Below are positions 793-29,238 of a stretch of DNA of 34,564 bases, piece by piece (the first letter of the stretch is position 1; every line of letters starts with the position of its first letter). The notes beneath the pieces are model-generated. The model searched no databases. It was not told where the DNA came from and saw only the letters and a program-made list of their open reading frames with translations. The position numbers were made by a program, and so were the translations under genes. This stretch comes from a virus: positions 1 through 34,564 of IMG/VR virus record IMGVR_UViG_3300025122_006142; one strand, 5' to 3'.

Positions 793-1532
793 TGCTCTAA
801 AAAGCTCTCCATACAAAACTCTTGACTTCCACAATGGTCTAAGTTTGGACGCGTTAGGTCCGACTTGCGCCCGCTGAAGCTTCGATTACAGATAATCTTG
901 AATGTTTGGTAGGCGGCAAAGTCTTTTTTATTTTTATAGTAAATGGTTTTCGACTCTTCTGTATTATAATTGTGCCGAGCACAGTAATCCTCCACTACCC
1001 CACGTAACAAATGGTCAAATGGGAGTTGGTTGTTTTCTAGAAAAAATAAAGGTTTAACAAAGCTAAAGTCCGGAATAAACTCTGCAAAAGAAAAATTGTT
1101 GCGATGAAGAAAGGAATCATAAAAGGGGATCGCCAATAAAAGGTTATTAGTCCAGTGTTCTTTTAGGTCCTTGAAAGTTAACCGTTGTTCGTAGTCACAA
1201 AATGCTTGAGAGTGAATCTTGTAAAGCTTTTTGCATCCGTGATCATTTTTAGCGAAAATGATGACCTTGTGATTTTTCTTTTTATCATCTTCGTGAGAGT
1301 TACACACGCTGAGTCTCAAGCCAAAAACTAATTGAATGTCATGCTCATCACAACGTTTTTTTGATTCTAGAAAACCATGAAAATTATCCTCCACCAAAAC
1401 TAGTTTGTCGAGATTGTTTTCAATTGCAATTTGAATAACGCTGTCTGCCCCTCCCTCTTTGATAGAAGCGGGGTCAGTAGCGGTAAGAATAGACTTCCCG
1501 ATACTGTAATGAGTTTTAAACAAAGGTACCAT
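789..1532 (-). CDS. Stand-alone PHP-like domain of DNA polymerase III alpha type (247 aa)
   Basis: The whole length reads like the N-terminal PHP domain of bacterial DnaE/PolC, without any polymerase domain. K-T-H-Y-S-I-G-K-S sits where DnaE has its first His strand; V-E-D-N-F-H-G-F-L-E-S follows the I-T-D-H-x-N-x-x-G pattern; H-K-V-I-I-F-A-K-N-D-H-G matches the L-L-A-K-N-xx-G strand; Q-E-F-C-M-E-S near the end resembles the DnaE segment leading into the palm. Several metal-binding positions are lost (one His in H-Y-S, D-N instead of D-H), so catalysis is doubtful. It may be a polymerase- or helicase-binding adaptor. The ATG at 1532 has AGAGGG only one base upstream, too close for a normal ribosome binding site; a promoter ends eight bases before it. 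Confidence 0.6.
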   Translation of the reverse strand: MVPLFKTHYSIGKSILTATDPASIKEGGADSVIQIAIENNLDKLVLVEDNFHGFLESKKRCDEHDIQLVFGLRLSVCNSHEDDKKKNHKVIIFAKNDHGCKKLYKIHSQAFCDYEQRLTFKDLKEHWTNNLLLAIPFYDSFLHRNNFSFAEFIPDFSFVKPLFFLENNQLPFDHLLRGVVEDYCARHNYNTEESKTIYYKNKKDFAAYQTFKIICNRSFSGRKSDLTRPNLDHCGSQEFCMESFLEQ

Positions 1533-1540
1533 ACCCTCTT

Positions 1541-1568
1541 AGTATAACGGTTTAGACGGGAGTGTCAA
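1541..1568 (-). promoter_or_regulatory. Sigma-70-like promoter for the PHP-domain gene
   Basis: On the minus strand TTGACA (1563-1568) and TATACT (1541-1546) are separated by 16 bases, close to the sigma-70 consensus. The -35 lies inside the last codons of the upstream nuclease gene. The -10 ends eight bases before the ATG at 1532, so the predicted start of transcription is only one or two bases before the start codon. Confidence 0.6.
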
Positions 1569-2601
1569 GGTAATTCCAGCGAGGACACCCAGCATAATGA
1601 AGTTTTTTTATAGAAAAGCTGTCTTTTTTATTTTTTAATAAAAGCGCATAGTTTTCCGGAAATTCTGTCTTAATAAGCTTGTCGTCTTTGTCGAACAGGC
1701 CATAATAATCAAATGGAAATTTATAAGCACAGTGCCACATCGGCGACCCGTCTTTTTTAAGCTGTCCCGGATATTTGGCTCTACCACATGCGATAGGGCC
1801 ACCAAAACTACCATCCGTAGGATTCGGTTTGTCAGCAGCGTATGAATTGATAGCCGAATAATAATTAAATTTGGACAGGTAGCGTTGGGCTTGGGTGAGT
1901 TCTATTTCAAATTCTTCAATTCTTTTATCCGAAATTTTGCGCATCTTCATGATACCCTTGGGTTTGTTTTTAGAATCCAAATCAAATCTTAGAAAAACGA
2001 ACTCACTGTTTCGGCTGGAAATCTCAGGGAAGAGATATTTAACTGCAATGCTATAAATATAATCTTGAAGATTTCTTTTCTTATCTTCCCCTTTAAATAC
2101 TTGTTTGCTTGTTTTGAAGTCTCTGATAAGGGCGCTCTTCTTTTTGTCGTAAATAAATAGCTTATCTATAAACCCTTTGATGGAGTAGTCTTTTTCCCCT
2201 TCTTTAATATGCATATCAAATTCATATTCAGAAAAAGACTCAGATGGCTTCGCGACCTTCTTCCCAAAAAAATCATACCGCAACCCAGCTACAATCATTT
2301 CTTTAATCATTTGCATGTTCTCTTCGTCATCAACCCCGAGGGGGATAGCCGTTTTAAGGATCAGCTTTTTGATGACGTCTACAGCAAAAGGATCGTTTTG
2401 TTCTAAAATAAGATCATAGTAATGCCTTCTTGACGGCTTACCAAGGCATTCGAAAACCAAGTGACACACTGTCCCTCGGGAGGCGCCGTCGTTAGATTTG
2501 TCGGGCAAACGTTGGTGGTACTTGCACCAGTAAAGCCAAGAACACATTTTTACTGTTTTAAGGCGACTGGCGGATAAATATATTGGTTTTGTTTTAGACA
2601 T
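1552..2601 (-). CDS. Cas4/AddB-like PD-(D/E)XK exonuclease with probable Fe-S cluster (349 aa)
   Basis: Predicted RecB/Cas4-family nuclease. Motifs in order: Y-L-S-A-S-R-L with C20 and C26, H47 in G-T-V-C-H, D146 in K-G-F-I-D-K, D161-F-K163 in I-R-D-F-K-T-S-K, and Q179-D-Y. Three Cys near the C-terminus (C272, C291, C339 in G-C-P-R-W) together with C20 give the one-plus-three arrangement that binds a 4Fe-4S cluster in AddB and Cas4; this is inference by pattern. It probably processes DNA ends in recombination or replication, next to primase and RecA. I choose the ATG at 2601 rather than the TTG at 2613, because it has GAGGA at proper spacing and overlaps the primase stop by only eight bases. 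Confidence 0.75.
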   Translation of the reverse strand: MSKTKPIYLSASRLKTVKMCSWLYWCKYHQRLPDKSNDGASRGTVCHLVFECLGKPSRRHYYDLILEQNDPFAVDVIKKLILKTAIPLGVDDEENMQMIKEMIVAGLRYDFFGKKVAKPSESFSEYEFDMHIKEGEKDYSIKGFIDKLFIYDKKKSALIRDFKTSKQVFKGEDKKRNLQDYIYSIAVKYLFPEISSRNSEFVFLRFDLDSKNKPKGIMKMRKISDKRIEEFEIELTQAQRYLSKFNYYSAINSYAADKPNPTDGSFGGPIACGRAKYPGQLKKDGSPMWHCAYKFPFDYYGLFDKDDKLIKTEFPENYALLLKNKKDSFSIKKLHYAGCPRWNYLDTPV

Positions 2602-3706
2602 CGGTTTCCTCAATGAAATTTTTAAGAAAATTTATTTTTTTATTTCTTTCTGTTTTATTTTTTACTATAGTCGCCCCCTCTTCGCTTTTTAAAATAGAAA
2701 GTATTCTACTTGTTTGCTTGGGTTTATCTAAGGGTTTGTTGTACCATTGTTCTTTAAAATTAATATTGTTTGTCTGCATATCTCCGAAATCGTTCTCTGT
2801 GGGGAGGTTGATGCGAAGCTTGTTAATGTCAAAATAATTTAAAAGCTTAACAAAGATTTTAATTGCTGCGCGAAGTCCTACATTGGACGCGTCATTGTTA
2901 GTCGCGATAATAATCTGGTCTAACTCTTGGGCTAGTAAAAAAGAAATCTGTTTTGAGCTCAAATCAAGGCCCCCTGTCACCAAATGGTTAAGGAACTTGT
3001 TTTCTGTCAGGGCTAAGCTGTCCCCGATACTTTCAACAATGATAACCTCTCTGCGCTCTTGAATGCTTTCTAGAAAAGGAAAAGTATTTGACCCCCCTTT
3101 TTTTCTGTTAAAACTAGGAACACATATGGGATAGAGCCAATTAGACTTGCGGCCTACGTGCTTCCATTTCGGAAACCCAGACTCGCTGTTCCAGCGTAAG
3201 TGGCGCCCGGTAAAACCAATGATTTGAGAAGGGTTCTTTTCATCAAAAATAGGAAAAACAAATCTCCCGTTAAGTTTCCCTGCTGTAGCCAAGCCTCCTT
3301 TATAGAGCTTTAGGGTTAAATCTGAGACTCCTTTATCGTTATAGAACTTAAAATGTGGCAATAATTTGGATAAATACTCCAAAGAGTAGGTTTCGTCCAT
3401 TTGTATTTTAACTTTTTGACTCTCTTTTTCAAAGGTACGGGGCACCTTTGGCCCCCCAGAAGGTTCGATATATTGGGCCAAAATCTTTTTGTCTGTAGTG
3501 CCTAGGGCTTTTTCCACTAACGCTTGAAAGGGAAGAAAGGCGGTATTCTCCACGTAATCTCTCCACACACCAGAATCTTTGTATATTTGAATGGCTGTAA
3601 AATTATCACCATTGCGCCACAACGCATTGGTTTGCCAGTAGGCGCCGCCGTCGCGCAGCTTGAACCCTAGTTCTAACAAAACTTCTTTGATCTCCTCAGT
3701 TTCCAT
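2594..3706 (-). CDS. DnaG-type DNA primase with TOPRIM domain (370 aa)
   Basis: Makes RNA primers at the replication fork with the DnaB-type helicase encoded nearby. The N-terminus (residues 10-65, with G-x-Y-W, N-A-L-W, W-R-D-Y) has the layout of the primase zinc-binding domain but lacks its cysteines. The RNA-polymerase basic subdomain is clear: G-R-F-V-F-P-I-F-D at 147-155 and I-G-F-T-G-R-H-L at 163-170. The TOPRIM glutamate is E225 in I-I-V-E-S-I-G-D-S. The D-x-D strand reads T-N-N-D-A-S at 269-274, so the first Asp is replaced by Asn270. The protein is short (DnaG is about 580 aa) and lacks an obvious helicase-binding C-domain. Its ATG overlaps the formyltransferase end by 11 bases. Confidence 0.85.
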   Translation of the reverse strand: METEEIKEVLLELGFKLRDGGAYWQTNALWRNGDNFTAIQIYKDSGVWRDYVENTAFLPFQALVEKALGTTDKKILAQYIEPSGGPKVPRTFEKESQKVKIQMDETYSLEYLSKLLPHFKFYNDKGVSDLTLKLYKGGLATAGKLNGRFVFPIFDEKNPSQIIGFTGRHLRWNSESGFPKWKHVGRKSNWLYPICVPSFNRKKGGSNTFPFLESIQERREVIIVESIGDSLALTENKFLNHLVTGGLDLSSKQISFLLAQELDQIIIATNNDASNVGLRAAIKIFVKLLNYFDINKLRINLPTENDFGDMQTNNINFKEQWYNKPLDKPKQTSRILSILKSEEGATIVKNKTERNKKINFLKNFIEETDV

Positions 3707-5248: not shown

Positions 5249-5252
5249 ACCT

Positions 5253-6773
5253 TTAGCGCAAAAGCTCCGGAATAAAATCATCAACAACATTATTCTCCCC
5301 GTCAAGCTCTTCGTTAACATTTAAGGCTTTGACCAAGTCTACCATATCTCCACGCTCTTCCACAGTGAAACCATCCATTTGAAGGTTAATAGCATTTTTG
5401 CGAAGGGATCCATCAGGCATTCTCACAGGATTAATAGCTCGCATATAATCTGCCCCAAGGTGACGTGATTTAACATTAATAAGTTTGTGGTTGCCACAGT
5501 TAGGTTCAGTGGCCGTTTCTTCTAATGTTTTTTGGCGCAAAATAAACATGTGAGAACAAAATTGAGTAATGCGATCAGATAGCGAAACAATGCTCTCGTC
5601 GTCTCTTACGTCTTGAGGCTGACGAACGTTGACAATACCTTGGCGATTGCTCTGGACGGATGTGATCATTGGAATGACAGGGCCCCCGTCCGAAAGAATT
5701 TCTTTTTGGATGGTTTTTTTAAATTTGTCTATCATTTCGCCAACGATTTGCCACTCAGATTTAGTTCCGTTGTTTTCGAAAGTAGTTTTAATATAATCAA
5801 AAGAAAATATCATCGGGTTTCCTCTGCCAATTTTAGAGTAATAAAAACGGCGAAGGGTTGCTATCATGGTATCTACACCCATCCCACCAACGTTATAGTA
5901 GTAAAACTTAATGTTTTTAACCTGCTTCCATACAGAACGAACCTTATTTACTGTTTCTTCTCCAGCTTGTCTCCATTGCCCTGTTTCAAGCAAGTTAGCT
6001 GAAATTCCACTTAGTGCGGAACATTGGCGAATGATAAGCTCTTCCTTGGACATTTCACCGTTATCAAAATGTAAAATAGGCACATTATACTCAGAAGAAA
6101 CCTTGGTGCAGAAGTCCATACAAAAACGTGTCTTCCCGACCCCTGAGCGGGCCACTATGACCGTTATATTGCCCGGCCGCAACAAAGACCCGTAAAGATC
6201 GTTAAGGCGCTTGTAGGGGCTCATAAGGCCAAATTCAGTAACAGGGTTGTTGCCTCTCAGTTCGATCCATTCTTCCATCTCGTCTGAGATATTGACAGGA
6301 CTGCTGGCGCCAGCATCAAAGAAGTTAATTTTTTCATTAAAGGTATTGTCTGCGCTCTCTATTATCTCGTTATAAGGAACGGAAGGGGACATTTTGCGCA
6401 TCGAATCGGCCACCTTCTTTGCCCCCTCAAAAATTTCTCGCCTAACAGTGAACTTTTTGAGTTCTTGGGCTATCTTTTCGATATTGTCGGGCGAGACTTT
6501 ACGAAGGGCTAGGGAATGAATATAATCTGAAATTTTAATATCATTGGGAAAGCTGATGTTAAGAGCGTCAACTCTTTGAGCGAGCAAAACCTCGTCCATT
6601 TTTTCCGCGTTCTCTAAAGCTTGGCGCAGGACATAAAAGATAGTCTTATTAATGGCATTTTCGTCTGCGCAAAAATCATTCTCGTTGATAAAAGTGGCAA
6701 TGTTCCCGTATTTGTGCGGGTATTTAATCAACCCTGCAAGCAAGTGCTGTTCGAGCTCTAAGGAAAATATCAT
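5253..6773 (-). CDS. dnaB: Replicative DNA helicase, DnaB family (506 aa)
   Basis: Hexameric fork helicase that unwinds DNA ahead of replication and recruits primase. The N-terminal domain (about 1-110) begins with the family pattern L-E-x-x-L-L-A-G-L. The RecA-like domain contains the Walker A motif A-R-S-G-V-G-K-T at 208-215, a D-N-G-E-M-S segment at 237-242 matching the DnaB S-L-E-M-S strand, Walker B around D326 in F-S-F-D-Y-I, and the DNA-binding S-V-Q-S-N-R region at 372-377. Length fits the family (about 450-500). A possible weak promoter lies in the 42-base gap upstream, and TAAGG about ten bases before the ATG may serve as ribosome binding site. It is followed closely by the deacetylase gene. 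Confidence 0.92.
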   Translation of the reverse strand: MIFSLELEQHLLAGLIKYPHKYGNIATFINENDFCADENAINKTIFYVLRQALENAEKMDEVLLAQRVDALNISFPNDIKISDYIHSLALRKVSPDNIEKIAQELKKFTVRREIFEGAKKVADSMRKMSPSVPYNEIIESADNTFNEKINFFDAGASSPVNISDEMEEWIELRGNNPVTEFGLMSPYKRLNDLYGSLLRPGNITVIVARSGVGKTRFCMDFCTKVSSEYNVPILHFDNGEMSKEELIIRQCSALSGISANLLETGQWRQAGEETVNKVRSVWKQVKNIKFYYYNVGGMGVDTMIATLRRFYYSKIGRGNPMIFSFDYIKTTFENNGTKSEWQIVGEMIDKFKKTIQKEILSDGGPVIPMITSVQSNRQGIVNVRQPQDVRDDESIVSLSDRITQFCSHMFILRQKTLEETATEPNCGNHKLINVKSRHLGADYMRAINPVRMPDGSLRKNAINLQMDGFTVEERGDMVDLVKALNVNEELDGENNVVDDFIPELLR

Positions 6774-6782
6774 AGAACTACG

Positions 6783-6811
6783 ACCTTACACCAAGAAAAG
6801 AAATAAGTCAA
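6783..6811 (-). promoter_or_regulatory. Possible weak promoter upstream of the helicase gene
   Basis: In the 42-base gap before the helicase a good -35 (TTGACT, 6806-6811) is followed 17 bases later by a poor -10 (TAAGGT, 6783-6788). The -10 ends nine bases before the ATG. The -10 matches the consensus at only three of six positions and could instead be the AAGG ribosome binding site, so this is a weak call. Confidence 0.25.
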
Positions 6812-6815
6812 GACA

Positions 6816-7073
6816 TTAAGACGGATTGTCTTCTGAGAGGGCTTTTTCGCCAAGCTCCATATCATCCAAAAATTTTTCCAAAGCCTTGCGGAGCCCCATC
6901 TCAACAATTTGGGAACCGATTTTGCATTGTATAAGTGGGCGACCATCTTGAGTAACGTAGGCTAAAATAAAACCGCCGTCGTCGCCATCACCTGTGAACT
7001 CGAAAAGCTTATCAAGGAAACTATTGGGAATAGTAAATTCTTCTATAGGATGATCTGAGATATTTTCTTGCAT
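6816..7073 (-). CDS. Hypothetical acidic protein (85 aa)
   Basis: Not recognised. A small acidic soluble protein (M-Q-E-N-I-S-D-H start; G-D-G-D-D-G-G at about 28-34; L-D-D-M-E-L-G-E near the C-terminus). The centre reads as beta strands (F-I-L-A-Y-V, P-L-I-Q-C-K-I) followed by an amphipathic helix (R-K-A-L-E-K-F-L-D-D-M). No catalytic motif or membrane segment. It lies between a nuclease and the DnaB helicase, 14 bases after the former, so it is likely a small replication accessory protein such as a loader or inhibitor (inference from position only). A TATAAT occurs two bases before its ATG but has no matching -35. Confidence 0.6.
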   Translation of the reverse strand: MQENISDHPIEEFTIPNSFLDKLFEFTGDGDDGGFILAYVTQDGRPLIQCKIGSQIVEMGLRKALEKFLDDMELGEKALSEDNPS

Positions 7074-7087
7074 TAATTATAAAACAT

Positions 7088-7501
7088 TTACACGTGTGGT
7101 TGAAAAATAGACTTATGAAGCTCACTAAAGTCTACGTTGCCCTCATGTACTTCAAGGAGCTTAATAGTATTAAGGTCACAAAAGGCCAACTTCTCGTCGT
7201 CTCTTTTTAATTGATTTAAATAATTTATTTTATTTTTATTGTGGAAGAACTTATTATACTTGGTATGTTGTTTTCCTTGTACTTCTATTGCTATGTTTTT
7301 GGTAGCGTTATAAAAATCCAAAGTTAAACGAGATCCCACCACAGGAAACTCCTCAAATACAACATCGCCGTCCCAAAAAACTCTTAAAAATTTTTTAACT
7401 TTAGCTTGAAGTTTGCTGCGACTTCCTTTGTCCCAATCAATCAAATAATTAATTGGCTTTTTAAGGCGGCGACGCTTTCCAAGTAGGGTCTTAAAGGTCA
7501 T
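7088..7501 (-). CDS. Small PD-(D/E)XK endonuclease, DUF559/Vsr-like (137 aa)
   Basis: Putative DNA endonuclease of the restriction-like fold. The core is L-T-L-D62-F-Y-N then I-A-I-E73-V-Q-G-K-Q-H, the D...ExQ-G-K-x-H layout of Vsr/DUF559-type nucleases, followed by K-R-D101-D-E-K-L-A-F and I-K-L-L-E-V. The N-terminus is strongly basic (G-K-R-R-R-L-K-K), which would bind DNA. Proteins of this type in phages resolve or nick DNA during recombination; here it directly follows recA (stop and ATG are one base apart), which fits that role. Exact substrate is unknown. Confidence 0.7.
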   Translation of the reverse strand: MTFKTLLGKRRRLKKPINYLIDWDKGSRSKLQAKVKKFLRVFWDGDVVFEEFPVVGSRLTLDFYNATKNIAIEVQGKQHTKYNKFFHNKNKINYLNQLKRDDEKLAFCDLNTIKLLEVHEGNVDFSELHKSIFQPHV

Positions 7502-7502
7502 C

Positions 7503-8639
7503 CTAAACAGAAATCACCATCTTTTTAAAATAATCTACAAGATGCTCCTTGGCAGCTGGATTTTCTTCCAAAAACTTATCAAATTGGTTTTCGCCTTGTA
7601 TTTTTTGAGGAAACTCAACCTTGGCTTCTGACATTATATTAAGTAATTCTGGGTCAAATTCTATCCAACCCGCTCCCTTTCGGTGGGCAAACTCCCATAA
7701 AAACAACATATCTAAAATTTCTTTTTCTATCCAAATGCTTTTTCCTCCTTTGCGCCCGTAAAGGATAGGGTATTTAATGACTGCGTTAGTCTTTTCATTG
7801 GGGCTCTTTTTGACTGTGATTTTAGCATAGTGGCCAATAATTTTATTCTTTTCGGGGTCATGCTTGTCTCCCGGTTTCTCTAATATCCAATCTTTTTTAA
7901 AACGAGGCTCAAATTCAAGAATAAAATTAGCAAAATGTAACAACGCATTACCTCCTGTAGCCGTTGTTTGGCGAATGGGGGCCTTCGTGTAGGGATCAAG
8001 TTGGATGTCTGCTCTAACTTGGGAAACGAAGATAGCCATGTGCCCTCGTTTGGTCAAACCAATACTAACACGCTTCATGAAGTCCGCAGCAATAACGGCC
8101 CCCCCCGCAACTTTTCTTGACTCTTCAAATGTTTTGAGGGTGTCTCCCTTGGTAATTAAACCATCCACTGAATCCAAAATAAAGCAATAGCGGGTATCGC
8201 CTGTGTTTTTTCCAACCAAAAGCCGTAATGCCTCCACTACGGTTTCATAAATATTGCATTCAAACACAAAGCAATTACCCGTATTCCATTCGTCCTCATC
8301 AAAAACAAAGTTTATACCGGAGCGAGCTCTCATTTGTTTGGTTAAACGCCCTTCGGCTTTAATGTAAAAGCCTCGAGAATTAGGGACTGTTTGCAAGAAG
8401 TTTTTCATCACCTCTAGGGCTTCGGACGTTTTACCACCTTCGTTCACACCTGTAAAGCGATGGAGGCCGGGTCCCAGCCCTCCGCCTAGCTCAAAGTCCA
8501 ATATTAAGCTCCCGCTAGATACTTGGTAATCATAGTTTTCTTCATAGTTGTAGTGATCTTTTTCGGTGGATTTTAAAAAAGATTTAATTAAATCGTTTGG
8601 GGATAATCCTTGGGGTGTTTCTTTTTTTGTTCTAGCCAT
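7503..8639 (-). CDS. recA: RecA/UvsX-type recombinase (378 aa)
   Basis: ATP-dependent strand-exchange protein that coats single-stranded DNA for phage recombination and replication restart. Features: variant Walker A G-V-N-E-G-G-K-T at 64-71 (RecA has G-P-E-S-S-G-K-T), catalytic glutamate E96 in Y-I-K-A-E-G-R-L, Walker B C-F-I-L-D156-S-V-D-G, the S-Q-V-R strand, and T-T-A-T-G-G-N-A-L matching the RecA DNA-binding loop 2 region T-x-x-G-G-x-A-L. The N-terminal helix and a C-terminal domain of about 100 residues make the length close to cellular RecA (about 350). The ATG overlaps the end of the preceding gene by eight bases. It is the second gene of the operon driven by the promoter at 8980-9008. 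Confidence 0.9.
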   Translation of the reverse strand: MARTKKETPQGLSPNDLIKSFLKSTEKDHYNYEENYDYQVSSGSLILDFELGGGLGPGLHRFTGVNEGGKTSEALEVMKNFLQTVPNSRGFYIKAEGRLTKQMRARSGINFVFDEDEWNTGNCFVFECNIYETVVEALRLLVGKNTGDTRYCFILDSVDGLITKGDTLKTFEESRKVAGGAVIAADFMKRVSIGLTKRGHMAIFVSQVRADIQLDPYTKAPIRQTTATGGNALLHFANFILEFEPRFKKDWILEKPGDKHDPEKNKIIGHYAKITVKKSPNEKTNAVIKYPILYGRKGGKSIWIEKEILDMLFLWEFAHRKGAGWIEFDPELLNIMSEAKVEFPQKIQGENQFDKFLEENPAAKEHLVDYFKKMVISV

Positions 8640-8973
8640 TGAGAAAATCTTTAAGTGTTTTTGGTGTTGAAAGTATGCGGTCGTCGCCTGTTTTATCGCC
8701 TAGCGTAATAGGGGGCGGGGAGTGAATGTCTAGGTGAAATTCTTGGTATTTGTTTTGCAGCATTTGGTTATAGGGCAGTGCATAGAATTGAGCAAAACTG
8801 TTAAGTTGTTTGCCGAAGTTGGCTTTGTGCCAAAAGTCTTCATTATTATATTTCTGCATCAATCTTTTCAAGATCATCATTTCTTTTGCCCAGAACTTTT
8901 TTTTATCGTACTTGGGGGCAACGAGGTGTTTTCTTACAACATCCTGTATTCTGCGTTTATTTTTTTTAGGCAC
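8632..8973 (-). CDS. Hypothetical basic protein, first gene of the recombination/replication operon (113 aa)
   Basis: Not recognised. Basic N-terminus (P-K-K-N-K-R-R), then a helical middle (K-K-F-W-A-K-E-M-M-I-L-K-R-L-M-Q-K-Y), aromatic-rich (F-W-H-K-A-N-F, F-A-Q-F-Y). No Cys or catalytic signature and no membrane segment; probably DNA- or protein-binding. The start codon is GTG; no Shine-Dalgarno lies upstream, and the first base of the GTG is where the strong promoter at 8980-9008 should start transcription. Either the mRNA is leaderless or translation starts lower, for example at the double ATG at residues 32-33. It overlaps recA by eight bases, so the two are coupled. Confidence 0.65.
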   Translation of the reverse strand: MPKKNKRRIQDVVRKHLVAPKYDKKKFWAKEMMILKRLMQKYNNEDFWHKANFGKQLNSFAQFYALPYNQMLQNKYQEFHLDIHSPPPITLGDKTGDDRILSTPKTLKDFLNG

Positions 8974-8979
8974 GTAGGT

Positions 8980-9008
8980 ATTATAGACCGCCTAGGGTTT
9001 TTAGTCAA
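8980..9008 (-). promoter_or_regulatory. Near-consensus sigma-70 promoter driving the recA-helicase-primase operon
   Basis: On the minus strand TTGACT (9003-9008), a 17-base spacer and a perfect TATAAT (8980-8985). The -10 ends six bases before the GTG at 8973, so the predicted +1 is the first base of that codon. It lies immediately behind the terminator at 9011-9035 and should be read by host RNA polymerase with its main sigma factor. Confidence 0.8.
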
Positions 9009-9010
9009 AC

Positions 9011-9035
9011 AAAAAATAAGGCCCCACGGGGCCTT
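9011..9035 (-). terminator. Rho-independent terminator
   Basis: Minus-strand hairpin with a 7-bp GC-rich stem (AAGGCCC / GGGCCTT, 9018-9035) and a four-base loop, followed by ATTTTTT (9017-9011). It closes transcription coming from the ribonucleotide reductase and sugar genes, 26 bases after the stop of the 65-residue ORF. On the plus strand the same hairpin is followed by a weaker TTTAAAATTTT, but no plus-strand gene needs it. Confidence 0.85.
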
Positions 9036-9061
9036 TAAAATTTTAAAATAAAGTCTAGAAA

Positions 9062-9259
9062 CTATTCCGAAGGGGGCACAGGAGCTATTCCGCTATTCCC
9101 TATATCAAAACCACAACCAATAATAAAGCTTTGAACGCCACTTAAAACAGCCTCAAGGGATGGATCCGTACCTCTAATGGAAGTATGAACCTCTGTTTGT
9201 ATATGGTTTCCCGTAGGCTCAATGTCGTCGTTGCGGCTAAATTGATAGCTCTCTTGCAT
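9062..9259 (-). CDS. Hypothetical protein (65 aa)
   Basis: Not recognised. Short, mildly acidic protein (M-Q-E-S-Y-Q-F-S-R-N-D-D start) with a hydrophobic stretch S-F-I-I-G-C-G-F around residues 44-51 and a Pro-rich end (A-P-V-P-P-S-E). Too short for a clear fold and without a full membrane helix. The ATG shares one base with the TAA of the preceding gene (TAATG), so it is co-translated with the Lys-rich protein, and it is the last gene before the terminator. A partner or chaperone of the preceding protein is possible but unproven. Confidence 0.55.
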   Translation of the reverse strand: MQESYQFSRNDDIEPTGNHIQTEVHTSIRGTDPSLEAVLSGVQSFIIGCGFDIGNSGIAPVPPSE

Positions 9260-10245
9260 TAAGGGGTGTAGTTAGGGTTTAAAAACTTACGATAATCCGC
9301 TTTAGGGGCCTTAGGTTTTTTAAACCAAAGATTATTAAGATTAAGTTCTTCTTTAAGCTTTTCCCAATCAACAGGCTCTAAGAGCTTGGAGTAGGGGGCG
9401 CTCTCAAGAACTCCGTCAAAAGGAGCTGGCTTAAATGCTACGGTAGGGTATTCGGCAGCGGTGGCGTCAGTTGAGGCTACTGTAGAAATAGTGAGGCTGG
9501 CGTTTTTTTTGTCAAGCTTTTTGTCTTTCTTTAAATAAAAGGTTTCGGCCCTTTTCTTTTCAGAGGGTTTTCCTTTTTGGAGCTTCTTAATTTTGCTTTC
9601 ATCATCTTTGACGGCATCTTTTTCGTGCTCTTTCTTTTCCTTTTTGGTGTCGCGATCAAGCTCTTTTTTATCTATCTTCTCCCACTGCTTTTTGGTTTTA
9701 GCTGAGGTGGGTTCATCTAACTCGGGGTAATCAGATTTCCCTTGTTTCATACCACCCTTCGACTCGTCTTTTTTGCTAGACTTTTTATCGTCTGATTTCT
9801 TGTCGGAATCTTTCTTGTCGGAATCTTTCTTGTCGCCGCCCTTTTTCTTGTTAATCATCTCTAGAAACTTTTCTTTAGCGGCTTTTTGCTTCTCTGAAGC
9901 GCCGTCCGATTCGGAGACCTGCACCCCAAGTTCCTTTGCTTTCTTTTTGATTTTAGCTAACGCCGACTTTTTGGCGGCAGCGGGAATCTTGGTTTGGTTA
10001 AGGCGAGCCAAGGCGTTGCGCACATGGGCCGCATCAGGAATGGGAAGGTGGCGTAAGGATCGCGGGGTGGTCTTACCTTCAGAATCTTTGGATCCACCCG
10101 GAGAAATGTAGGCAAAATCAGAGTCAGGGAGGTTATTAACGTCTTTGCTGCTTAGCTCTTTAGCTTCCGCTTGCCTGCGGATCTCAGAGGTGAAATCTAC
10201 CTCTACCTCGATTCCGGCTGGTAAATAGGAGTCTGGATATTTCAT
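9259..10245 (-). CDS. Lys/Asp-rich protein with a phage-associated N-terminal domain (328 aa)
   Basis: Function uncertain. Residues about 37-110 (L-P-D-S-D-F-A-Y-I-S-P-G-G, then R-S-L-R-H-L-P-I-P-D-A-A-H-V-R-N-A-L-A-R-L and a Lys/Ala helix) resemble a small domain often attached to phage structural, protease or scaffold proteins; this is from memory of the pattern. Residues about 125-250 are a low-complexity, highly charged region (K-K-D-S-D repeats, many K, D, E), probably disordered, and encoded in part by a 15-bp tandem repeat. The C-terminal 80 residues are ordered and Pro/aromatic-rich (D-Y-R-K-F-L-N-P-N-Y). A scaffold, internal head protein or DNA-condensing protein would fit. It follows ribonucleotide reductase after a 47-base gap. 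Confidence 0.6.
   Translation of the reverse strand: MKYPDSYLPAGIEVEVDFTSEIRRQAEAKELSSKDVNNLPDSDFAYISPGGSKDSEGKTTPRSLRHLPIPDAAHVRNALARLNQTKIPAAAKKSALAKIKKKAKELGVQVSESDGASEKQKAAKEKFLEMINKKKGGDKKDSDKKDSDKKSDDKKSSKKDESKGGMKQGKSDYPELDEPTSAKTKKQWEKIDKKELDRDTKKEKKEHEKDAVKDDESKIKKLQKGKPSEKKRAETFYLKKDKKLDKKNASLTISTVASTDATAAEYPTVAFKPAPFDGVLESAPYSKLLEPVDWEKLKEELNLNNLWFKKPKAPKADYRKFLNPNYTP
9797..9835. repeat. 15-bp tandem repeat inside the Lys-rich gene
   Basis: TTCTTGTCGGAATCT occurs at 9797-9811 and 9812-9826, with nine bases of a third copy at 9827-9835. It encodes the repeated D-S-D-K-K peptide of the charged region and keeps frame (5 codons per unit), so copy number could change without breaking the gene. 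Confidence 0.85.
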
Positions 10246-10292
10246 AATACAGCAGTATTTACACCTTTTTAAAACATTTTGGAAGTTTTTCT

Positions 10293-12230
10293 TTATTTAA
10301 TGGGGCACACCCCTCCTGCACATTCTAGCCCTTCAAGTTGCTTGCCGTTAGAAATAGCTTGGGGCTTTATTTTTTTAATGTTTTTCTTAATTTTATTGTA
10401 TTTTTCTTTGTCTATCTCCTCGTAGGGGGCTTGGTCGAAACCGTGGTCTTGGTGCAACAAGAAAGACACGCTTTTAATGTTATTTTTATAGTTTTTGCTG
10501 AGCCATTCTTTAATATCGTCCAGTTCTTCTTTGCGATAATAAACCGTGCAGGAAACCGCATTATCTGACCACGTTTTTTGAATTTGTTTAACAAGCTCGA
10601 GCTGGTCAATAGCAGACGTATCTTTAGCTAGCTTGGCGTCAGCACCAGAGGTACAAGGAAATTCAACTAAAACCGTATCTCTATTCAAGGAGCCGTCAAA
10701 GTTTTTAGTATATTCTACATGATATCCTAAGTTTTTACAGGTCTCTACTAATTGGTCGTCACTCGACATACGGACGCGGCGAATATAATATTGAGAATAT
10801 GCTGGGTGAACCCCGGGAGTGGCACCCGCCAATAAACTTAAGGTCCCGCTAGGTTTCACGGTAGTTAACTTGATGCTCTCTGGCCAGTTGTTCTTAGCGC
10901 TCCATTCTTTATCAAATTTACGCAATTCTTGATAACAATGATCTAACCATGGAATCTTTTCAAAAGATTGACATAAGCCCGTGACCCCTTGTCCAATGCG
11001 AAAGTTTTTGTGAACAATCTTATTGGTATCTTCATGGATGAAGGGTAGAGCGCATATAGCTTTTTGTGTTTTATATAACAAAGTAGAGCACTCAGTTAGT
11101 TCCTTTTTAGATTCGATGTTGTTTAAATAAAGTTCGGCAAGATTGCAGCACTCCTTGTCAGCTAAAGAAATCTCGCCGCAGGGGTTGGTGCCTTCACAGT
11201 TTTCTCGGCTTTTTTCTCCTGTGCGTCCATATTTAGAACTAAGACCAAGGTTAAAAAAGCCATAAGGCTCTCCATTGCCTGCATAACCATCCCACACCCC
11301 TTCCATAATATGGTCATAGCTATCACAGTAAATAGTATTATTGCTCATTGCGCGCCAATTAGGGATATTACCGAGGTCCCATCTCTTGGCTTTAAGGTAC
11401 AAAAAGTCATCCGGATCCCCTAATGCTATTTCGGCAGAGCGACGAACATTTCCAGCCACAACAATAGAGCCAATAATATTAGCTATGTCTAAAACATCCA
11501 AGCTACGAAGTTTTTTTCCTTCTCGAGCTTTCATTACCTCACAAATCTTTGCAGTACCGTTGATTAAAATCTCAGGGCCGCTAGCTGTGCCACCAAATCC
11601 ATGGATAGGTTTTCCAGCGCTACGCACAAGGACGGTGGAGTAATTAAAGGACTGTCCGGTGACAAAGAGAGCGTCTAAAACTTTTTGCAATAGACGAACC
11701 CATCCTTCGCGACTATCCGGCACGATAAAGTCCGCATCATTGGTGTTTTTCACTTCAATTTCCACCCCGCGCTTGACGCGGGGTAACTCGTGAATATCTT
11801 CACGGCGAATCGAATAGCCTACGCCACCGCCTAACATTAAATTTTCAAAAATAAAACAAAAATCTTCAGGTTTTTTAATAGCAGTAAACCAACAGTTGAG
11901 TAAGCTGTTTCCCCCAAAGCGGTCCACAGTTGAGGTCCCTAGTTGCCAAAGGCCGCGCCCAGCGAAGTTGCATTTAAGGTTAAAGACTAAATCGAATAAT
12001 CTTTCTGCTTCTTTTGATGTGTACTTTGCTCCAATTTTTTGAGCGCCATTAATACATCTAGCAATAGTTTCGGGCCACTCTTCTAATAGGCCGTCGTCTT
12101 TAAGTCGGGAATAGGTGCGTTTGTAAACGATATATCCAAGGCCGTTAAAACCCCATTTGGGTTGTTTGTTTTTGTATTTTGCTACGAAGTCATCTGTGAT
12201 GATAGAGGTGGTGTCTTTTTTTACCGTCAT
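10293..12230 (-). CDS. nrdJ: Class II (adenosylcobalamin-dependent) ribonucleoside-triphosphate reductase (645 aa)
   Basis: Reduces ribonucleotides to deoxyribonucleotides for phage DNA synthesis. It follows the monomeric Lactobacillus leichmannii type. C113 in L-L-N-C-W-F and C362 in E-C-C-N-L are the substrate-reducing pair, C351 with N349 and E353 in N-P-C-G-E-I-S-L is the thiyl-radical site (C351 to C362 has the same spacing of 11 as the L. leichmannii 408/419 pair), and C637/C642 near the C-terminus in E-C-A-G-G-V-C form the C-xxxx-C shuttle that reloads the active site. No separate small subunit gene is present and none is needed, but the host must supply B12. The gene is 47 bases before the Lys-rich gene. 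The 34-base gap upstream shows no promoter I trust. Confidence 0.9.
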   Translation of the reverse strand: MTVKKDTTSIITDDFVAKYKNKQPKWGFNGLGYIVYKRTYSRLKDDGLLEEWPETIARCINGAQKIGAKYTSKEAERLFDLVFNLKCNFAGRGLWQLGTSTVDRFGGNSLLNCWFTAIKKPEDFCFIFENLMLGGGVGYSIRREDIHELPRVKRGVEIEVKNTNDADFIVPDSREGWVRLLQKVLDALFVTGQSFNYSTVLVRSAGKPIHGFGGTASGPEILINGTAKICEVMKAREGKKLRSLDVLDIANIIGSIVVAGNVRRSAEIALGDPDDFLYLKAKRWDLGNIPNWRAMSNNTIYCDSYDHIMEGVWDGYAGNGEPYGFFNLGLSSKYGRTGEKSRENCEGTNPCGEISLADKECCNLAELYLNNIESKKELTECSTLLYKTQKAICALPFIHEDTNKIVHKNFRIGQGVTGLCQSFEKIPWLDHCYQELRKFDKEWSAKNNWPESIKLTTVKPSGTLSLLAGATPGVHPAYSQYYIRRVRMSSDDQLVETCKNLGYHVEYTKNFDGSLNRDTVLVEFPCTSGADAKLAKDTSAIDQLELVKQIQKTWSDNAVSCTVYYRKEELDDIKEWLSKNYKNNIKSVSFLLHQDHGFDQAPYEEIDKEKYNKIKKNIKKIKPQAISNGKQLEGLECAGGVCPIK

Positions 12231-12264
12231 TAGGGTCAGAGTCTATAGTTTACACTTAAAGTTT

Positions 12265-16022: not shown

Positions 16023-16584
16023 AATCGTAATTTACTAATAAATGCCATATCACGCCTTGCCATTCTTCTGCGTGAGGAGTAACAAGGGTATCGTCTACCA
16101 CGGGAATCATGACACAAGCGTCAGAATAAGCTTTGGAGTACCCTCCTCCTCTGCTTACTATAGAATAGACTTTTGAACCTTGCTGTTTAGCGTACCGAAT
16201 TGCCCGAACAAGATTTTGGGATGTAGTGTCACTCCCTCCCCCTACCGACAGAACTAGTAAAGCGTCGTTGCTATTTAGGTAAGACCCTTGAAGCCAGTTG
16301 GCAAAACAATCCTCCCAACTCTCATCGTTAATCCGAGCGGTCAGTTCTGCTACGTTATCTGTAGGAGCGTAGGCTTCTATTCCTAAAATTTTCCTAAAAT
16401 CGTTTACGCAATGAGAGGCGTTGGCAGCACTCCCTCCTACCCCTAAAATAAAGAGGCGACCTTTTTGTTTTTTTAAATCTTTAAGCCCGTCGATTAGGGC
16501 TCCCACGTCATCGACGTCTACTGTATCGCAAATCTCTTTAACTTGACTTAAGTATTTGAGGATGTAATTTTTTGTTTTATCCAC
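16012..16584 (-). CDS. SIS-domain isomerase, GmhA-like phosphoheptose isomerase (190 aa)
   Basis: Expected to convert sedoheptulose 7-phosphate to D-glycero-D-manno-heptose 7-phosphate. The SIS sugar-phosphate site is L-G-V-G-G-S-A-A-N-A-S-H at 47-58, followed by V-N-D-F-R-K as in GmhA, and S-V-G-G-G-S-D-T-T-S near residue 113-122 binds the phosphate. Length (190) equals GmhA. H58 and a late H (E-E-W-Q-G-V-I-W-H) could act in catalysis. The start codon is GTG inside the last 12 codons of the epimerase gene upstream, with a weak AGAAGA before it. Lies between epimerase and transaldolase in the heptose block. Confidence 0.83.
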   Translation of the reverse strand: MDKTKNYILKYLSQVKEICDTVDVDDVGALIDGLKDLKKQKGRLFILGVGGSAANASHCVNDFRKILGIEAYAPTDNVAELTARINDESWEDCFANWLQGSYLNSNDALLVLSVGGGSDTTSQNLVRAIRYAKQQGSKVYSIVSRGGGYSKAYSDACVMIPVVDDTLVTPHAEEWQGVIWHLLVNYDYEN

Positions 16585-17462
16585 TCTTCTATTCTGACTG
16601 TAGGTTCATATCCTAATAGGCGCTTAGCTTTTGATATGTCCGCCAAGGTGTTTTTAGACTCGCCGGGTCGCGCCGGAAGAAAAACGTGCTCATCGCTAAT
16701 CATATTCGCAAGCTCTAAAACCGAACAATTGGAACCGCTGCCTACGTTAAAAACCTCCCCAAAAATCTGTTCGTTATCGCTTTGCATAGCTAGCATATTT
16801 GCTTGCACAACATCCTCGACGTGCGTAAAGTCTCTTCTCTGAGAGCCATCGCCAACAACAGTTAAGGCTTCCTTGTTGCGTTTCTGCTTAAGAAAAAGCC
16901 CCACGACGGGAGCATACAGCCCTTTAGTTGGCTCTCGCTCCCCGTAGATATTAAAATAACGAAAAATAACGGTTTCAAGTCCCCATAAAGTATAATACAT
17001 TCGAGCTAAATCTTCAGCCGCAACCTTGGTTACAGCATAGGGGTTCAGACAGTCTCTTTCCATGTCTTCTCTCAGGGGGATTTTATTTTTTAAACCATAT
17101 CCTGAGGAAGTCGAAGAATACATAACCCGTTTTATTTTATGTGTTCGTGCGGCCTGTAATACGTTACAAGTCCCCACAAAGTTGGTAATACAGGCGTCTT
17201 GGGGCCTTTCAAGAGTGGGTTGGATTCTAGATTCGGCTCCCAAGTGAAAAACGTAATCGACATCTTGAAAGAGGGGTTCTATCGCGTCGTAATCAGTTAT
17301 TGAGGCCTTTGTATATTGAGCATTATTGTTATGAAAAAATTTATCATTTGACTCCGCACTTTCATTATCAATAACAACAATTTCATGCCCTACTGACACC
17401 AATTTGTCTACGATGTGAGATCCGATGAAGCCGCAGCCTCCTGTAACTAAAGATTTAACCAT
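16548..17462 (-). CDS. NAD-dependent sugar epimerase/dehydratase, GalE/WbpP-like (304 aa)
   Basis: Extended short-chain dehydrogenase acting on a nucleotide sugar. T-G-G-C-G-F-I-G-S-H at 7-16 binds NAD; S-S-T-S-S-G-Y-G plus Y-A-V-T-K (the Y-xxx-K pair) form the catalytic set; R-Y-F-N-I-Y-G-E-R and R-R-D-F-T-H-V-E-D-V are substrate-side motifs shared with UDP-hexose 4-epimerases; P-A-R-P-G-E is near the C-terminus. Substrate (UDP-, GDP- or ADP-sugar) cannot be decided; an ADP/GDP-heptose epimerase role is possible given the heptose genes beside it. It has its own candidate promoter six bases upstream, so the distal heptose/fucose genes may be expressed separately. Confidence 0.8.
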   Translation of the reverse strand: MVKSLVTGGCGFIGSHIVDKLVSVGHEIVVIDNESAESNDKFFHNNNAQYTKASITDYDAIEPLFQDVDYVFHLGAESRIQPTLERPQDACITNFVGTCNVLQAARTHKIKRVMYSSTSSGYGLKNKIPLREDMERDCLNPYAVTKVAAEDLARMYYTLWGLETVIFRYFNIYGEREPTKGLYAPVVGLFLKQKRNKEALTVVGDGSQRRDFTHVEDVVQANMLAMQSDNEQIFGEVFNVGSGSNCSVLELANMISDEHVFLPARPGESKNTLADISKAKRLLGYEPTVRIEEWIKQKITSSNT

Positions 17463-17468
17463 ACGCAG

Positions 17469-17496
17469 ATTATGTAACCAAAAGGCACTTTATCAA
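17469..17496 (-). promoter_or_regulatory. Internal promoter in the sugar cassette
   Basis: Minus strand TTGATA (17491-17496), a 16-base spacer and CATAAT (17469-17474); each hexamer matches the consensus at five of six positions. The -35 overlaps the stop codon of the HAD-nucleotidyltransferase gene. The -10 ends six bases before the ATG at 17462, so the transcript would start at the start codon. Confidence 0.6.
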
Positions 17497-18888: not shown

Positions 18889-18908
18889 GGTTTCTTTGGG
18901 TTGATGGA

Positions 18909-23565: not shown

Positions 23566-23574
23566 ATTTTTTAC

Positions 23575-24426: not shown

Positions 24427-24432
24427 AACTAG

Positions 24433-25901: not shown

Positions 25902-25949
25902 CTGTATGTATAGTCCACTATGTTTTTGATTTCTTTCGGAAAATTTTTT

Positions 25950-26738: not shown

Positions 26739-27571
26739 GGATTGAATGGCTCTAGTCTTTCAATTTCATAAAAAACTAAATCGTCTCCTTTTTTTTCTCT
26801 TTTACTGAAGATCTCTTTTACTGATTGTTTGAATGCTTGTTGGTCGAAAGCATGATTATTGTCCCTAAAATAATGAAAATGAAAATTTATTAAAGGGTTA
26901 TTCAACATTTTTAAGTCTTCGCCTTTTAAATTAATAGAATCCCATCTTGTTTGAGCGTTAGGCCCTAGAAATTTCCACCATCCAACATTGTAGTTAATGG
27001 GGAGCGTTATGGTTGTGTACAATTCTGTTGTTACTTCAAGTGGTTTTTGTTCATAGTAAAGCCCCAGTTGCTTATGCCGTAGGAATAAATCCTCCCATGT
27101 TGCTAGAAATGCAGGGTTAGAAATTAAAACAAAGCCACAGTTATAATAGCCAACTGTTTTTTCGTCTGCGAATCCATCTGAATAGTGCGGACTAACTGCT
27201 GCGTCTACTAATCCCTTGTCGATCAACTCTAAGATTTGACTCTCCATAGGATTAAAAAAGATATGGTCCACATCGCACCAAAAAATAAAATTAGAATCTT
27301 TAAAAGCTTCTTTTGCGACAGTGAACTTTGCTTTAATGATCTCAATAAAATCAGCCTGCTGTTGGGGTGACTGCGAGACATGGTCTGCGTTTTCTGTTTT
27401 TATCAACTTAAAACACTTAACATCCTTGAAATTTTCATGAAGGTAGTCATAACAAAAATCATCAACAGCCAAGTAAAATTCCACAAAGTGATGCTGTTCA
27501 ATAGTTTTTTTCATTAAAAGAAAATCTTTGAGGCAGCTTTTAGTAACGGCTGATACGGTGCTTAGTTTCAT
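26735..27571 (-). CDS. Nucleotide-diphospho-sugar transferase, GT-A type (278 aa)
   Basis: Predicted glycosyltransferase. N-F-I-F-W-C-D-V-D-H-I-F-F (about 92-104) contains the D-x-D metal site in the form used by GT77/GT8-like enzymes, and V-G-Y-Y-N-C-G-F-V-L-I-S with a later G-W-W-K-F-L and N-F-H-F-H-Y-F match the remaining landmarks (acceptor and catalytic loops). No signal or membrane segment. The ATG overlaps the GT2 gene stop by ATGA and its own stop overlaps the next gene by GTGA. Sugar specificity cannot be read. Confidence 0.7.
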   Translation of the reverse strand: MKLSTVSAVTKSCLKDFLLMKKTIEQHHFVEFYLAVDDFCYDYLHENFKDVKCFKLIKTENADHVSQSPQQQADFIEIIKAKFTVAKEAFKDSNFIFWCDVDHIFFNPMESQILELIDKGLVDAAVSPHYSDGFADEKTVGYYNCGFVLISNPAFLATWEDLFLRHKQLGLYYEQKPLEVTTELYTTITLPINYNVGWWKFLGPNAQTRWDSINLKGEDLKMLNNPLINFHFHYFRDNNHAFDQQAFKQSVKEIFSKREKKGDDLVFYEIERLEPFNP

Positions 27572-28326
27572 GGTGATTGTTTTATTTCGTGGGAAGATTT
27601 GTAGTCAGGTTCGTATTTTCTTCTCATTTCATTAACTTCGTTGACCATTTCCTTGAGGGTGGCGGGGTCACTCGACCTTCCCGTTGGATTATGATAGTAA
27701 ATGCCCACTATATTATCAATTTTTTTCATTTTAGATCCTGCTTTGGCGGCTTTGAGCCATAAATCGGCATCTGAGGCTGTTTTATATTCTTCATTAAAAT
27801 AACCAAAGCGATCATGGATAGTTCTACGCCACATAGGCATACAGTGCGGATTGTTATTTCTCAGAAGGTCTGTCCAATCGTGGGTTTCGTTGCAAATATA
27901 CAACTCCTTAGATTGAAGAACACTCCAATCTTCGTTAGGGGTGGTACTAACAATAGTATCTCCGTAAACCAAATCAATATCAGGGTTTAAAACCAAAGAA
28001 TCTCTCATGACCTCCAAAGACCATGGTGATTTCCTGTCATCAATATTCCAATTGGTTAATAAATCGCTCTTTGTATGCGTGATGCAAACGTTCCATGCGG
28101 GATAGAGCCCCGGGTCTTTTTCTAGCCTTAGGTAGGTGATATTGGGATATTTGGCATAGCTAGTTATCACTTCCGCTTCATTATCAGGGGAAGCGCAATC
28201 CAACATAAAAAAATTCACCTCTTTAAAAATGGTTTGGCACAGCATGTCTTCCATATACCCTTCAACAAACTCCCCTCCCTTAAATATTGGGCAGTAGCAA
28301 GTTACGCTAGGATATTTGCTTGACAT
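27568..28326 (-). CDS. GT2 family glycosyltransferase, first gene of the sugar cassette (252 aa)
   Basis: GT-A inverting glycosyltransferase of GT2. The start S-V-T-C-Y-C-P-I-F-K-G-G-E-F is the family's V-T-V-x-x-P-x-Y-N-x region; F-F-M-L-D-C-A-S-P-D-N matches the V-D-x-x-S-x-D-x-T strand; N-W-N-I-D-D (about 92-97) is the metal-binding D-D; T-A-S-D-A-D-L-W-L-K contains the catalytic-side E/D-D-x-x-L-W motif. Upstream of the ATG there is TAAAAT seven bases away but no good -35 on this strand, so the promoter of the cassette remains uncertain. Cytosolic enzyme. Confidence 0.82.
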   Translation of the reverse strand: MSSKYPSVTCYCPIFKGGEFVEGYMEDMLCQTIFKEVNFFMLDCASPDNEAEVITSYAKYPNITYLRLEKDPGLYPAWNVCITHTKSDLLTNWNIDDRKSPWSLEVMRDSLVLNPDIDLVYGDTIVSTTPNEDWSVLQSKELYICNETHDWTDLLRNNNPHCMPMWRRTIHDRFGYFNEEYKTASDADLWLKAAKAGSKMKKIDNIVGIYYHNPTGRSSDPATLKEMVNEVNEMRRKYEPDYKSSHEIKQSP

Positions 28327-28348
28327 ATTGAATATTTTAAGCTAAAAT
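28320..28348 (+). promoter_or_regulatory. Strong sigma-70-like promoter for the rightward block
   Basis: Perfect TTGACA (28320-28325), 17-base spacer, TAAAAT (28343-28348), five of six in the -10. It ends six bases before the ATG at 28355, so the mRNA should start at the start codon. The -35 overlaps the start codon of the divergent GT2 gene (28324-28326), so the two directions may interfere. Confidence 0.75.
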
Positions 28349-28354
28349 GATTCT

Positions 28355-28678
28355 ATGATTAGAGTACTAGAAAATCAAGACAAAAAACTCTATTACGTCT
28401 CTAGCAGTGACTGGGAGTCGGTTGTGTTAGCAAAAGATGCGATTGAGGCTGCCGGGGAAGCTTTTGAGGAAGCTTTTGACGTATTTGGAGATAATTTAAA
28501 TCTAAGTTCCTGCGTGAAGGTAATTAATTGTTCTGGGCTACAACAGAAACACCTAATAGAAACAGATCAAGTAGAATTCGACATGTTTTATGTTCCCTCC
28601 GTATTGGCAGACATAGGAAAACATAAGCTTTCTAAACAATTAGACGAAATAATTCAAAAAATGGAAAAAAAAGCTTGA
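28355..28678 (+). CDS. Hypothetical acidic protein (107 aa)
   Basis: Not recognised. Begins M-I-R-V-L-E-N-Q-D-K-K-L-Y-Y-V-S-S and has an A/E-rich helix (A-K-D-A-I-E-A-A-G-E-A-F-E-E-A-F) at about 26-42, then strands (V-K-V-I-N-C) and a charged C-terminal helix (L-D-E-I-I-Q-K-M-E-K-K). Soluble, no catalytic signature. It is the first gene of the rightward block and has no ribosome binding site upstream: its start codon coincides with the predicted transcription start. The next promoter begins inside its stop codon. A small regulator or accessory protein is possible. Confidence 0.65.
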   Translation: MIRVLENQDKKLYYVSSSDWESVVLAKDAIEAAGEAFEEAFDVFGDNLNLSSCVKVINCSGLQQKHLIETDQVEFDMFYVPSVLADIGKHKLSKQLDEIIQKMEKKA

Positions 28679-28703
28679 CATGAGGTAAATCCTGTATTAT
28701 ATT
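28675..28703 (+). promoter_or_regulatory. Sigma-70-like promoter for dUTPase and downstream genes
   Basis: Perfect TTGACA (28675-28680), 17-base spacer and TATATT (28698-28703). The -35 overlaps the TGA of the gene before it. The -10 ends seven bases before the ATG at 28711, so transcription should begin one base before, or at, the start codon. Confidence 0.78.
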
Positions 28704-28710
28704 AATAACT

Positions 28711-29238
28711 ATGGAAGTTTACATTAAGCAGAATCCGGAAGAGCCTTCGATTAAACGGCCCGAATACGAGGGGGACGCTGGATATGATCTATTCGCACGA
28801 GAAAACCCTAAGGTATCAGGTGAACCTATAGGCAAAAACCAAACGTTACAGGCAACTTATAAGAGTATCGATTACATAGAGTATGACACCAAATTAACCG
28901 TTGCCCCTATAGATGACATCTCATTTTATTCGATGGTTTACCCGAGAAGCAGCGTTTCAAAATACAACTTAGCCCTAGCTAATTCAGTTGGAATTGTTGA
29001 CTCTGGCTTTAGAGATACTATCAAGGTAAGATTTAGGTATATCATGCAACCTGACGACCTTATTCTAAAAGACGGGAAGATTCAAGGAATGAAAATTAAT
29101 ATCAAGAAAATTTATCAAAAAGGAGATAAAATAGCCCAGCTAATCTGGTGCATGCACAACCATCCGTTCTTGAATTTCTCTGACACCGTCCCCCCCTCTC
29201 AAAGAGCCTTGGGAGGATTTGGAAGCACCGGGAGATAA
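28711..29238 (+). CDS. dut: dUTP pyrophosphatase (175 aa)
   Basis: Trimeric dUTPase that hydrolyses dUTP to dUMP, keeping uracil out of phage DNA and feeding dTMP synthesis. The five family motifs are present: G-D-A-G-Y-D-L-F-A (21-29), Y-P-R-S-S (77-81), N-S-V-G-I-V-D97-S-G-F-R-D, K-G-D-K-I-A-Q-L-I (137-145) and R-A-L-G-G-F-G-S-T-G near the C-terminus. The aromatic residue stacking on uracil is F100 instead of Tyr. An extra segment of about 20 residues (111-130) and a longer strand around 30-60 make it longer than the usual 150. It has no Shine-Dalgarno and begins at its promoter's predicted start. Overlaps the kinase gene by one base. Confidence 0.93.
   Translation: MEVYIKQNPEEPSIKRPEYEGDAGYDLFARENPKVSGEPIGKNQTLQATYKSIDYIEYDTKLTVAPIDDISFYSMVYPRSSVSKYNLALANSVGIVDSGFRDTIKVRFRYIMQPDDLILKDGKIQGMKINIKKIYQKGDKIAQLIWCMHNHPFLNFSDTVPPSQRALGGFGSTGR

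Follow-up and report, generated by a model that had tools for sequence, protein, structure and literature searches.

Promoters locked to start codons predict leaderless operon heads across a lineage of large uncultured phages

In phage lambda, the PRM promoter stands directly before the ATG of cI, and the mRNA begins at the A of that codon without a Shine-Dalgarno (SD) sequence. Leaderless mRNA is usually regarded as an exception in bacteria and in known phages, and the main genome-scale phage case that we found is the Thermus phage phiYS40, for which leaderless transcription of most middle and late genes has been reported (PMC3594737). Leaderless genes of Deinococcus-Thermus and of other bacteria have a -10 element beside the open reading frame (ORF), and their +1 coincides with the start codon's first base (PMC12340547, PMC3160421, PMC3616915). 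Here we describe the same arrangement in a linear IMG/VR phage fragment of 34.6 kb and 40% G+C (IMGVR_UViG_3300025122_006142), which was analyzed over its whole length and is referred to as the window, and in its relatives. Whereas lambda cI is one gene in one phage, and the bacterial examples are cellular, dozens of operon heads in a virus lineage are concerned here, with a canonical TTGAC -35 element and a phage-specific second promoter class. We consider it very probable that promoters have been fixed by selection in this lineage so as to give leaderless operon heads, lineage-wide and in two promoter classes, the first of them of sigma70 type.

The original prediction was that five genes of the window share one promoter geometry, and all five strings were read ahead of the starts at 1532 (-), 8973 (-), 17462 (-), 28355 (+) and 28711 (+). 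That set was incomplete, as the start of the DnaB-like helicase at 6773 (TTGACT-N17-TAAGGT-N9-ATG) is a further head. The elements are as follows.

1563..1568, minus strand: -35 TTGACA of the PHP/DNA-polymerase-like gene 789-1532; N16 spacer; kept in orthologs
1541..1546, minus strand: -10 TATACT of gene 789-1532, 8 nucleotides (nt) ahead of the ATG at 1532
6806..6811, minus strand: -35 TTGACT of the DnaB-like helicase gene 5253-6773; N17 spacer; kept in orthologs
6783..6788, minus strand: -10 TAAGGT of the helicase gene, 9 nt ahead of the ATG at 6773
9003..9008, minus strand: -35 TTGACT of gene 8632-8973; N17 spacer; kept in orthologs; directly preceded by a terminator-like hairpin at about 9018-9035
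8980..8985, minus strand: -10 TATAAT of gene 8632-8973, 6 nt ahead of the GTG at 8973
17491..17496, minus strand: -35 TTGATA of the epimerase gene 16548-17462; N16 spacer; shares bases with the stop codon of the preceding gene
17469..17474, minus strand: -10 CATAAT of the epimerase gene, 6 nt ahead of the ATG at 17462
28320..28325, plus strand: -35 TTGACA of gene 28355-28678; N17 spacer; identical in the ortholog on contig L086
28343..28348, plus strand: -10 TAAAAT of gene 28355-28678, 6 nt ahead of the ATG at 28355; TACAAT in L086
28675..28680, plus strand: -35 TTGACA of the dUTPase gene 28711-29238; N17 spacer; identical in L086
28698..28703, plus strand: -10 TATATT of the dUTPase gene, 7 nt ahead of the ATG at 28711

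A sigma70 weight matrix was run over the sequences ahead of 42 curated genes of the window, with the end of the -10 element held at 5-9 nt before the start and a cut-off of 8 bits. Six genes reached the cut-off (starts 1532, 28355, 28711, 8973, 6773 and 17462), compared with a mean of 0.30 sites in 1000 dinucleotide-preserving shuffles of these sequences, which gave three sites at most and never six, and with 0.25 sites when the same scan was made at offsets of 12-31 nt from the start. Thus the sites lie far above chance, which is what the comparison with shuffled sequence had been proposed to decide, and the relatives are enriched too. The helicase site scored slightly higher than that at 17462; these are the two weakest of the six, and among the five listed originally none is weaker than 17462.

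Relatives of the window helicase were encoded on 93 IMG/VR stretches, of which 80 were kept (identity from 100% to 53%), on contigs of up to 211 kb; genomes were taken from four distant contigs of ~200 kb (G007-G010) and five closer contigs. In the four large relatives, TTGAC[AT] stood 33-38 nt before the start of 28, 28, 33 and 26 genes (G007 to G010, respectively), a total of 115 of 957 genes where ~6 were expected, the expectation of 1.2-1.7 genes per genome being derived from other positions. The distances peaked sharply at 35 nt, with almost none at 28-33 or 41-45 nt. The -10 element was not selected for when genes with TTGAC at 35 nt were examined (n=69), and yet T occupied position -12 in 51 of them, A position -11 in 63, and T position -7 in 68. 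TAnnnT at -12 was present in 68-75% of these genes versus 2.5-5% of other genes, and this conserved element at -12 to -7 makes the A of the ATG the canonical +1. The consensus of this class in the lineage is therefore CTTGAC[A/T]-N17-TAnnnT-N6-ATG. G009 contains the full pattern 20 times with N6 ahead of the ATG, and not once with N14 or when reversed, and weight-matrix sites 5-9 nt before starts were enriched 11.7-24.5-fold in the lineage genomes.

Promoter geometry was also conserved in orthologs of the helicase, PHP, 8632-8973, 28355 and 28711 heads. Among distinct orthologs, 50 of 54 helicase genes have TTGA 32-39 nt upstream of the ATG (exactly 35 nt in 31), 22 of 24 PHP genes have it at 30-40 nt, and the box was found in 27 of 32 orthologs of gene 8632-8973 (exactly 35 nt in 22). 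In comparison, for four genes that lie inside operons of this block, the TTGA box was present in 0/31, 4/55, 0/27 and 3/56 orthologs. The dUTPase head of L086 has both hexamers letter for letter, although its spacer has diverged, and the 28355 head has an unchanged -35 element with TAAAAT replaced by TACAAT. The helicase site, weak by score, is rescued because its orthologs keep the box; the site at 17462 is not.

Between the divergent genes at window 28326-28355 we also noted a near-symmetric sequence, ATTTTAAGCTAAAAT, with a -10-like element on both strands: TAAAAT is separated by 6 nt from the start of gene 28355-28678, and the element on the other strand by 7 nt from the ATG at 28326. It is largely kept in L086 and may be a bidirectional promoter.

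Leaderless heads were expected to do without SD sequences, and this held for three of them (helicase, PHP and 8632-8973), whose distinct orthologs showed SD-like strings in 0 of 110 cases. SD-like strings preceded 6 of 115 TTGAC heads (3.0 in shuffles, about chance) and 1 of 57 GTGTAA heads, a second class described below (4.2 in shuffles, below chance). The claim that genes inside operons do have SD sequences was right in direction, but the enrichment was modest (64 of 378 genes, where shuffled sequence gave 38); SD is used sparingly throughout the phage, operon interiors included. The predicted leaderless head at 8973 begins with GTG, and this start was retained in 22 of 32 orthologs. In S. 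meliloti every leaderless start that has been mapped is AUG, and in E. coli leaderless initiation at other codons is described as inefficient (PMC3616915), which makes the GTG at 8973 notable.

The other strongly position-specific hexamer in the four genomes was GTGTAA, which lies 14 nt upstream of the start in 37 genes and 15 nt upstream in a further 15, without a visible -35 partner. From its position it would be a second promoter class, also in leaderless register. It sometimes lies directly behind a terminator-like hairpin. A scan for terminators upstream of each class gave few perfect hairpins. The window contains three such elements and a candidate for the protein that reads them.

7088..7093, minus strand: GTGTAA of gene 6816-7073, conserved in orthologs
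10259..10264, minus strand: GTGTAA of gene 9259-10245, conserved in L101 and L104
12250..12255, minus strand: GTGTAA of the B12-dependent ribonucleotide reductase (RNR) gene 10293-12230, conserved in L005 and L007
29785..30405, plus strand: phage sigma factor with a PHROG sigma match, candidate reader of GTGTAA

Among orthologs of gene 6816-7073, GTGTAA lay 14-20 nt before the ATG in 34 of 46, and at 14 or 15 nt in 23. The sigma factor has homologs in G006-G010 and sequence matches in PDB to sigma region 2, and its PDB matches by sequence and fold are nearly all sigma factors. Its structure model has a mean predicted local distance difference test score (pLDDT) of 78, the Foldseek matches listed are sigma factors with low template-modeling scores (TM-scores), and features of regions 2 and 4 of the sigma70 family were found in sequence, alignment and fold. 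This protein is probably the reader of GTGTAA. In G009, at C1:155876-155916 (L112:16576-16616), a palindrome, TTACACTAGTGTAA, forms two back-to-back GTGTAA promoters between divergent genes, one of them PhoH-like.

Genes with TTGAC promoters include those for the helicase, PHP protein, clamp loader and dNMP kinase and many small ORFs (median 109 amino acids), and they are clustered along the genomes, while the GTGTAA genes of G009 encode tail and tail-fibre proteins, RNR, PhoH and epimerase (class median 268 amino acids). Judged by this gene content, TTGAC is probably the early and GTGTAA the late class. A role late in infection, which had been suggested for the five heads, is not supported for a class that precedes replication, nucleotide and small early-type genes. 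Likewise, the idea that the phage favours particular ribosome states found no support, as neither ribosomal protein S21 nor initiation factor IF3 genes were found in the lineage contigs.

The positional test separated one known positive, phiYS40, from four other phages. phiYS40 gave 6 full sites versus 0.76 expected and 14 -10 sites versus 2.24, whereas T4, KVP40, HTVC008M and phiM12 (50 kb each) gave 0-1 sites versus 0.24-0.90 expected, which is no excess. Like phiYS40, the lineage consists of large lytic phages with a genome-wide promoter class abutting start codons, and weak homologs of the helicase, dNMP kinase and RNR are common to both. The two are not closely related by sequence, with few weak matches of ~23-31% identity in shared enzymes. 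phiYS40 also has a thermophilic host and a leaderless class that is middle or late, whereas in our lineage the -35/-10 class that precedes early-type genes is predicted to be leaderless as well, and GTGTAA is the element of the second class. The predicted architecture is of phiYS40 type, with an extension to a -35/-10 class heading early-type genes. With T4-type phages the lineage shares a phage sigma factor, a second promoter class consisting of a -10 element only, and UvsX and helicase genes. The late promoters of T4 gp55 (TATAAATA) have the same register as the second class, although the element here is GTGTAA and the T4-type phages above show no leaderless spike. A simple T4-like assignment was rejected, given that the T4-like controls lack the signal; the gp23 capsid profile PF07068 had no match in 7 contigs, but the control likewise gave no match anywhere.

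The original observation is confirmed in a much stronger form than a single window allows, as a predicted genome-wide leaderless architecture in a diverse lineage of uncultured phages, carried by positional statistics, orthologs and negative controls. The five sites and that of the helicase would be genuine sigma70-type promoters read by host RNA polymerase, with selection holding the start codon's A (or G) at the transcription start or within ~3 nt of it. Operon-head mRNAs would then be leaderless and translated without SD pairing, presumably by 70S-type initiation, and the downstream genes of operons would depend on coupling or on weak SD sequences. The same rule would apply genome-wide, to an early TTGAC class and to a second, probably late, GTGTAA class, probably read by the phage sigma factor.

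The tight packing of these genes, with gaps before TTGAC heads often of 25-60 nt, might by itself bring real promoters close to starts and yield short leaders without any selection on the register of +1 and ATG. We consider this very unlikely, because compactness does not explain a spike at 35 nt flanked by near-empty distances, other compact phages have no such spike, and the spacing between promoter and start is retained across orthologs of ~50-60% identity. Still less credible is the idea that the annotated starts are wrong and that the true ones lie downstream, with ribosome-binding sites and ordinary leaders. Start codons are indeed predictions, but alignments of the helicase, PHP and dUTPase proteins to relatives begin at residue 1, the epimerase opens directly with its Rossmann motif, and dozens of orthologs have ATG or GTG equally far behind the promoter. 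GTGTAA, of which the position is known and no -35 partner is seen, could also be a translation signal or an operator near start codons. This is improbable in our view, as the motif precedes just 1 of the 387 genes in the four genomes that adjoin or overlap their upstream neighbour, and such genes would need a translation signal too; in addition, a hairpin directly precedes the motif at times, and the register fits a -10 element that would set +1 on the ATG.

A larger share of probability, though still clearly a minor one, goes to a habit of the host, which may itself begin many of its transcripts at the start codon, with the phage following it and having no strategy of its own. A -10 element next to the ORF has been described as a common pattern in Deinococcus-Thermus (PMC12340547), the leaderless phage phiYS40 infects Thermus, and SD is weak even within the operons of these phages. 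Should host genes obey this rule as well, the trait would belong to the host-phage pair and not to the phage. A relative turned up in only one cellular assembly, a Halobacteriovorax metagenome-assembled genome (MAG) of 4.9 Mb, possibly mis-binned, which had only 9 exact-pattern matches, one of them on the phage contig itself, against the 20 in the 0.2-Mb G009. That contig, PBIO01000033.1 (L166; helicase 49% and UvsX 61% identity), carries both promoter classes, and we take its binning as a weak hint to the host, not as proof.

Several points weigh against start-codon-locked, leaderless operon heads. Transcript 5′ ends are predicted from promoter position, and start codons come from a simple ORF caller. 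For the epimerase head at 17462 no usable ortholog was found, leaving the site without that support. The gaps of 8 nt (1532) and 9 nt (6773) between -10 element and start make leaders of 1-3 nt as likely as zero, and the three GTGTAA elements of the window lie 19-25 nt before their starts, so that the leaders there may be ~5-11 nt rather than zero. Additionally, many non-overlapping genes in the large genomes carry neither exact motif, and hence other start modes or degenerate sites exist.

The hsp20 gene (start 32222) had been put forward as a possible sixth head with weaker boxes. We rejected it as a sigma70 leaderless head, as its best sigma70 score was 4.3 bits and a conserved sigma54-type motif is present instead.

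32191..32207, plus strand: sigma54-type -24/-12 promoter, TTGGCATAGGATCTGCT, ahead of hsp20

A TTGGCA(C/T)...TGC motif with GG-N10-GC precedes hsp20 in the window and in G006, G007, G010, L018, L019, L020, L024 and L032, and the combination of GG-N10-GC with TTGGCA and TGC is that of a sigma54 promoter. By motif, the hsp20 promoter is thus predicted to be a conserved sigma54-type one. Its predicted leader is only ~4 nt in the window, G006, G007 and G010. A sigma54 activator encoded by the phage was sought and rejected: matches to PF00158 were mostly AAA+ proteins of ~815-845 amino acids, which from their size appear to be Clp-chaperone-like, and one further match, a protein of 321 amino acids, was not accepted as an activator. 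A palindrome, GTGTAATATATTACAC, lies at the end of hsp20 (window 32591-32606) and is followed by a terminator-like hairpin.

The lineage itself is deeply diverged. Megablast of window bases 1-25000 against 50,697 phage records gave no match, and megablast of a terminase region of G009 gave none either. In the search for the nearest named phage, the window helicase and UvsX had only ~23-28% identity to any record, and the PHP gene matched none. Besides the PHP gene and helicase, the window encodes an exonuclease, primase, UvsX-like recombinase and nuclease, together with the B12-dependent RNR, sugar-nucleotide genes, dUTPase, dNMP kinase, the sigma factor and Hsp20. Our literature search found no paper on leaderless promoters in this phage lineage.

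Our confidence is evenly balanced on a broader statement, that in a widespread lineage of ~200-kb uncultured phages an early programme of host sigma70 and a second programme of the phage sigma factor both start at the start codon, a conserved leaderless GUG included, so that leader-dependent initiation is bypassed throughout infection as a trait of the phage and not a copy of its host. A deeply diverged family with two start-codon-locked promoter classes would be a natural system for studying the efficiency of leaderless initiation, and a way to ask whether such initiation protects the phage's translation against control by the host. Such a family also offers a simple rule for placing start codons and mapping operons correctly in uncultured phages, in which gene finders that expect SD sequences may mis-call starts.

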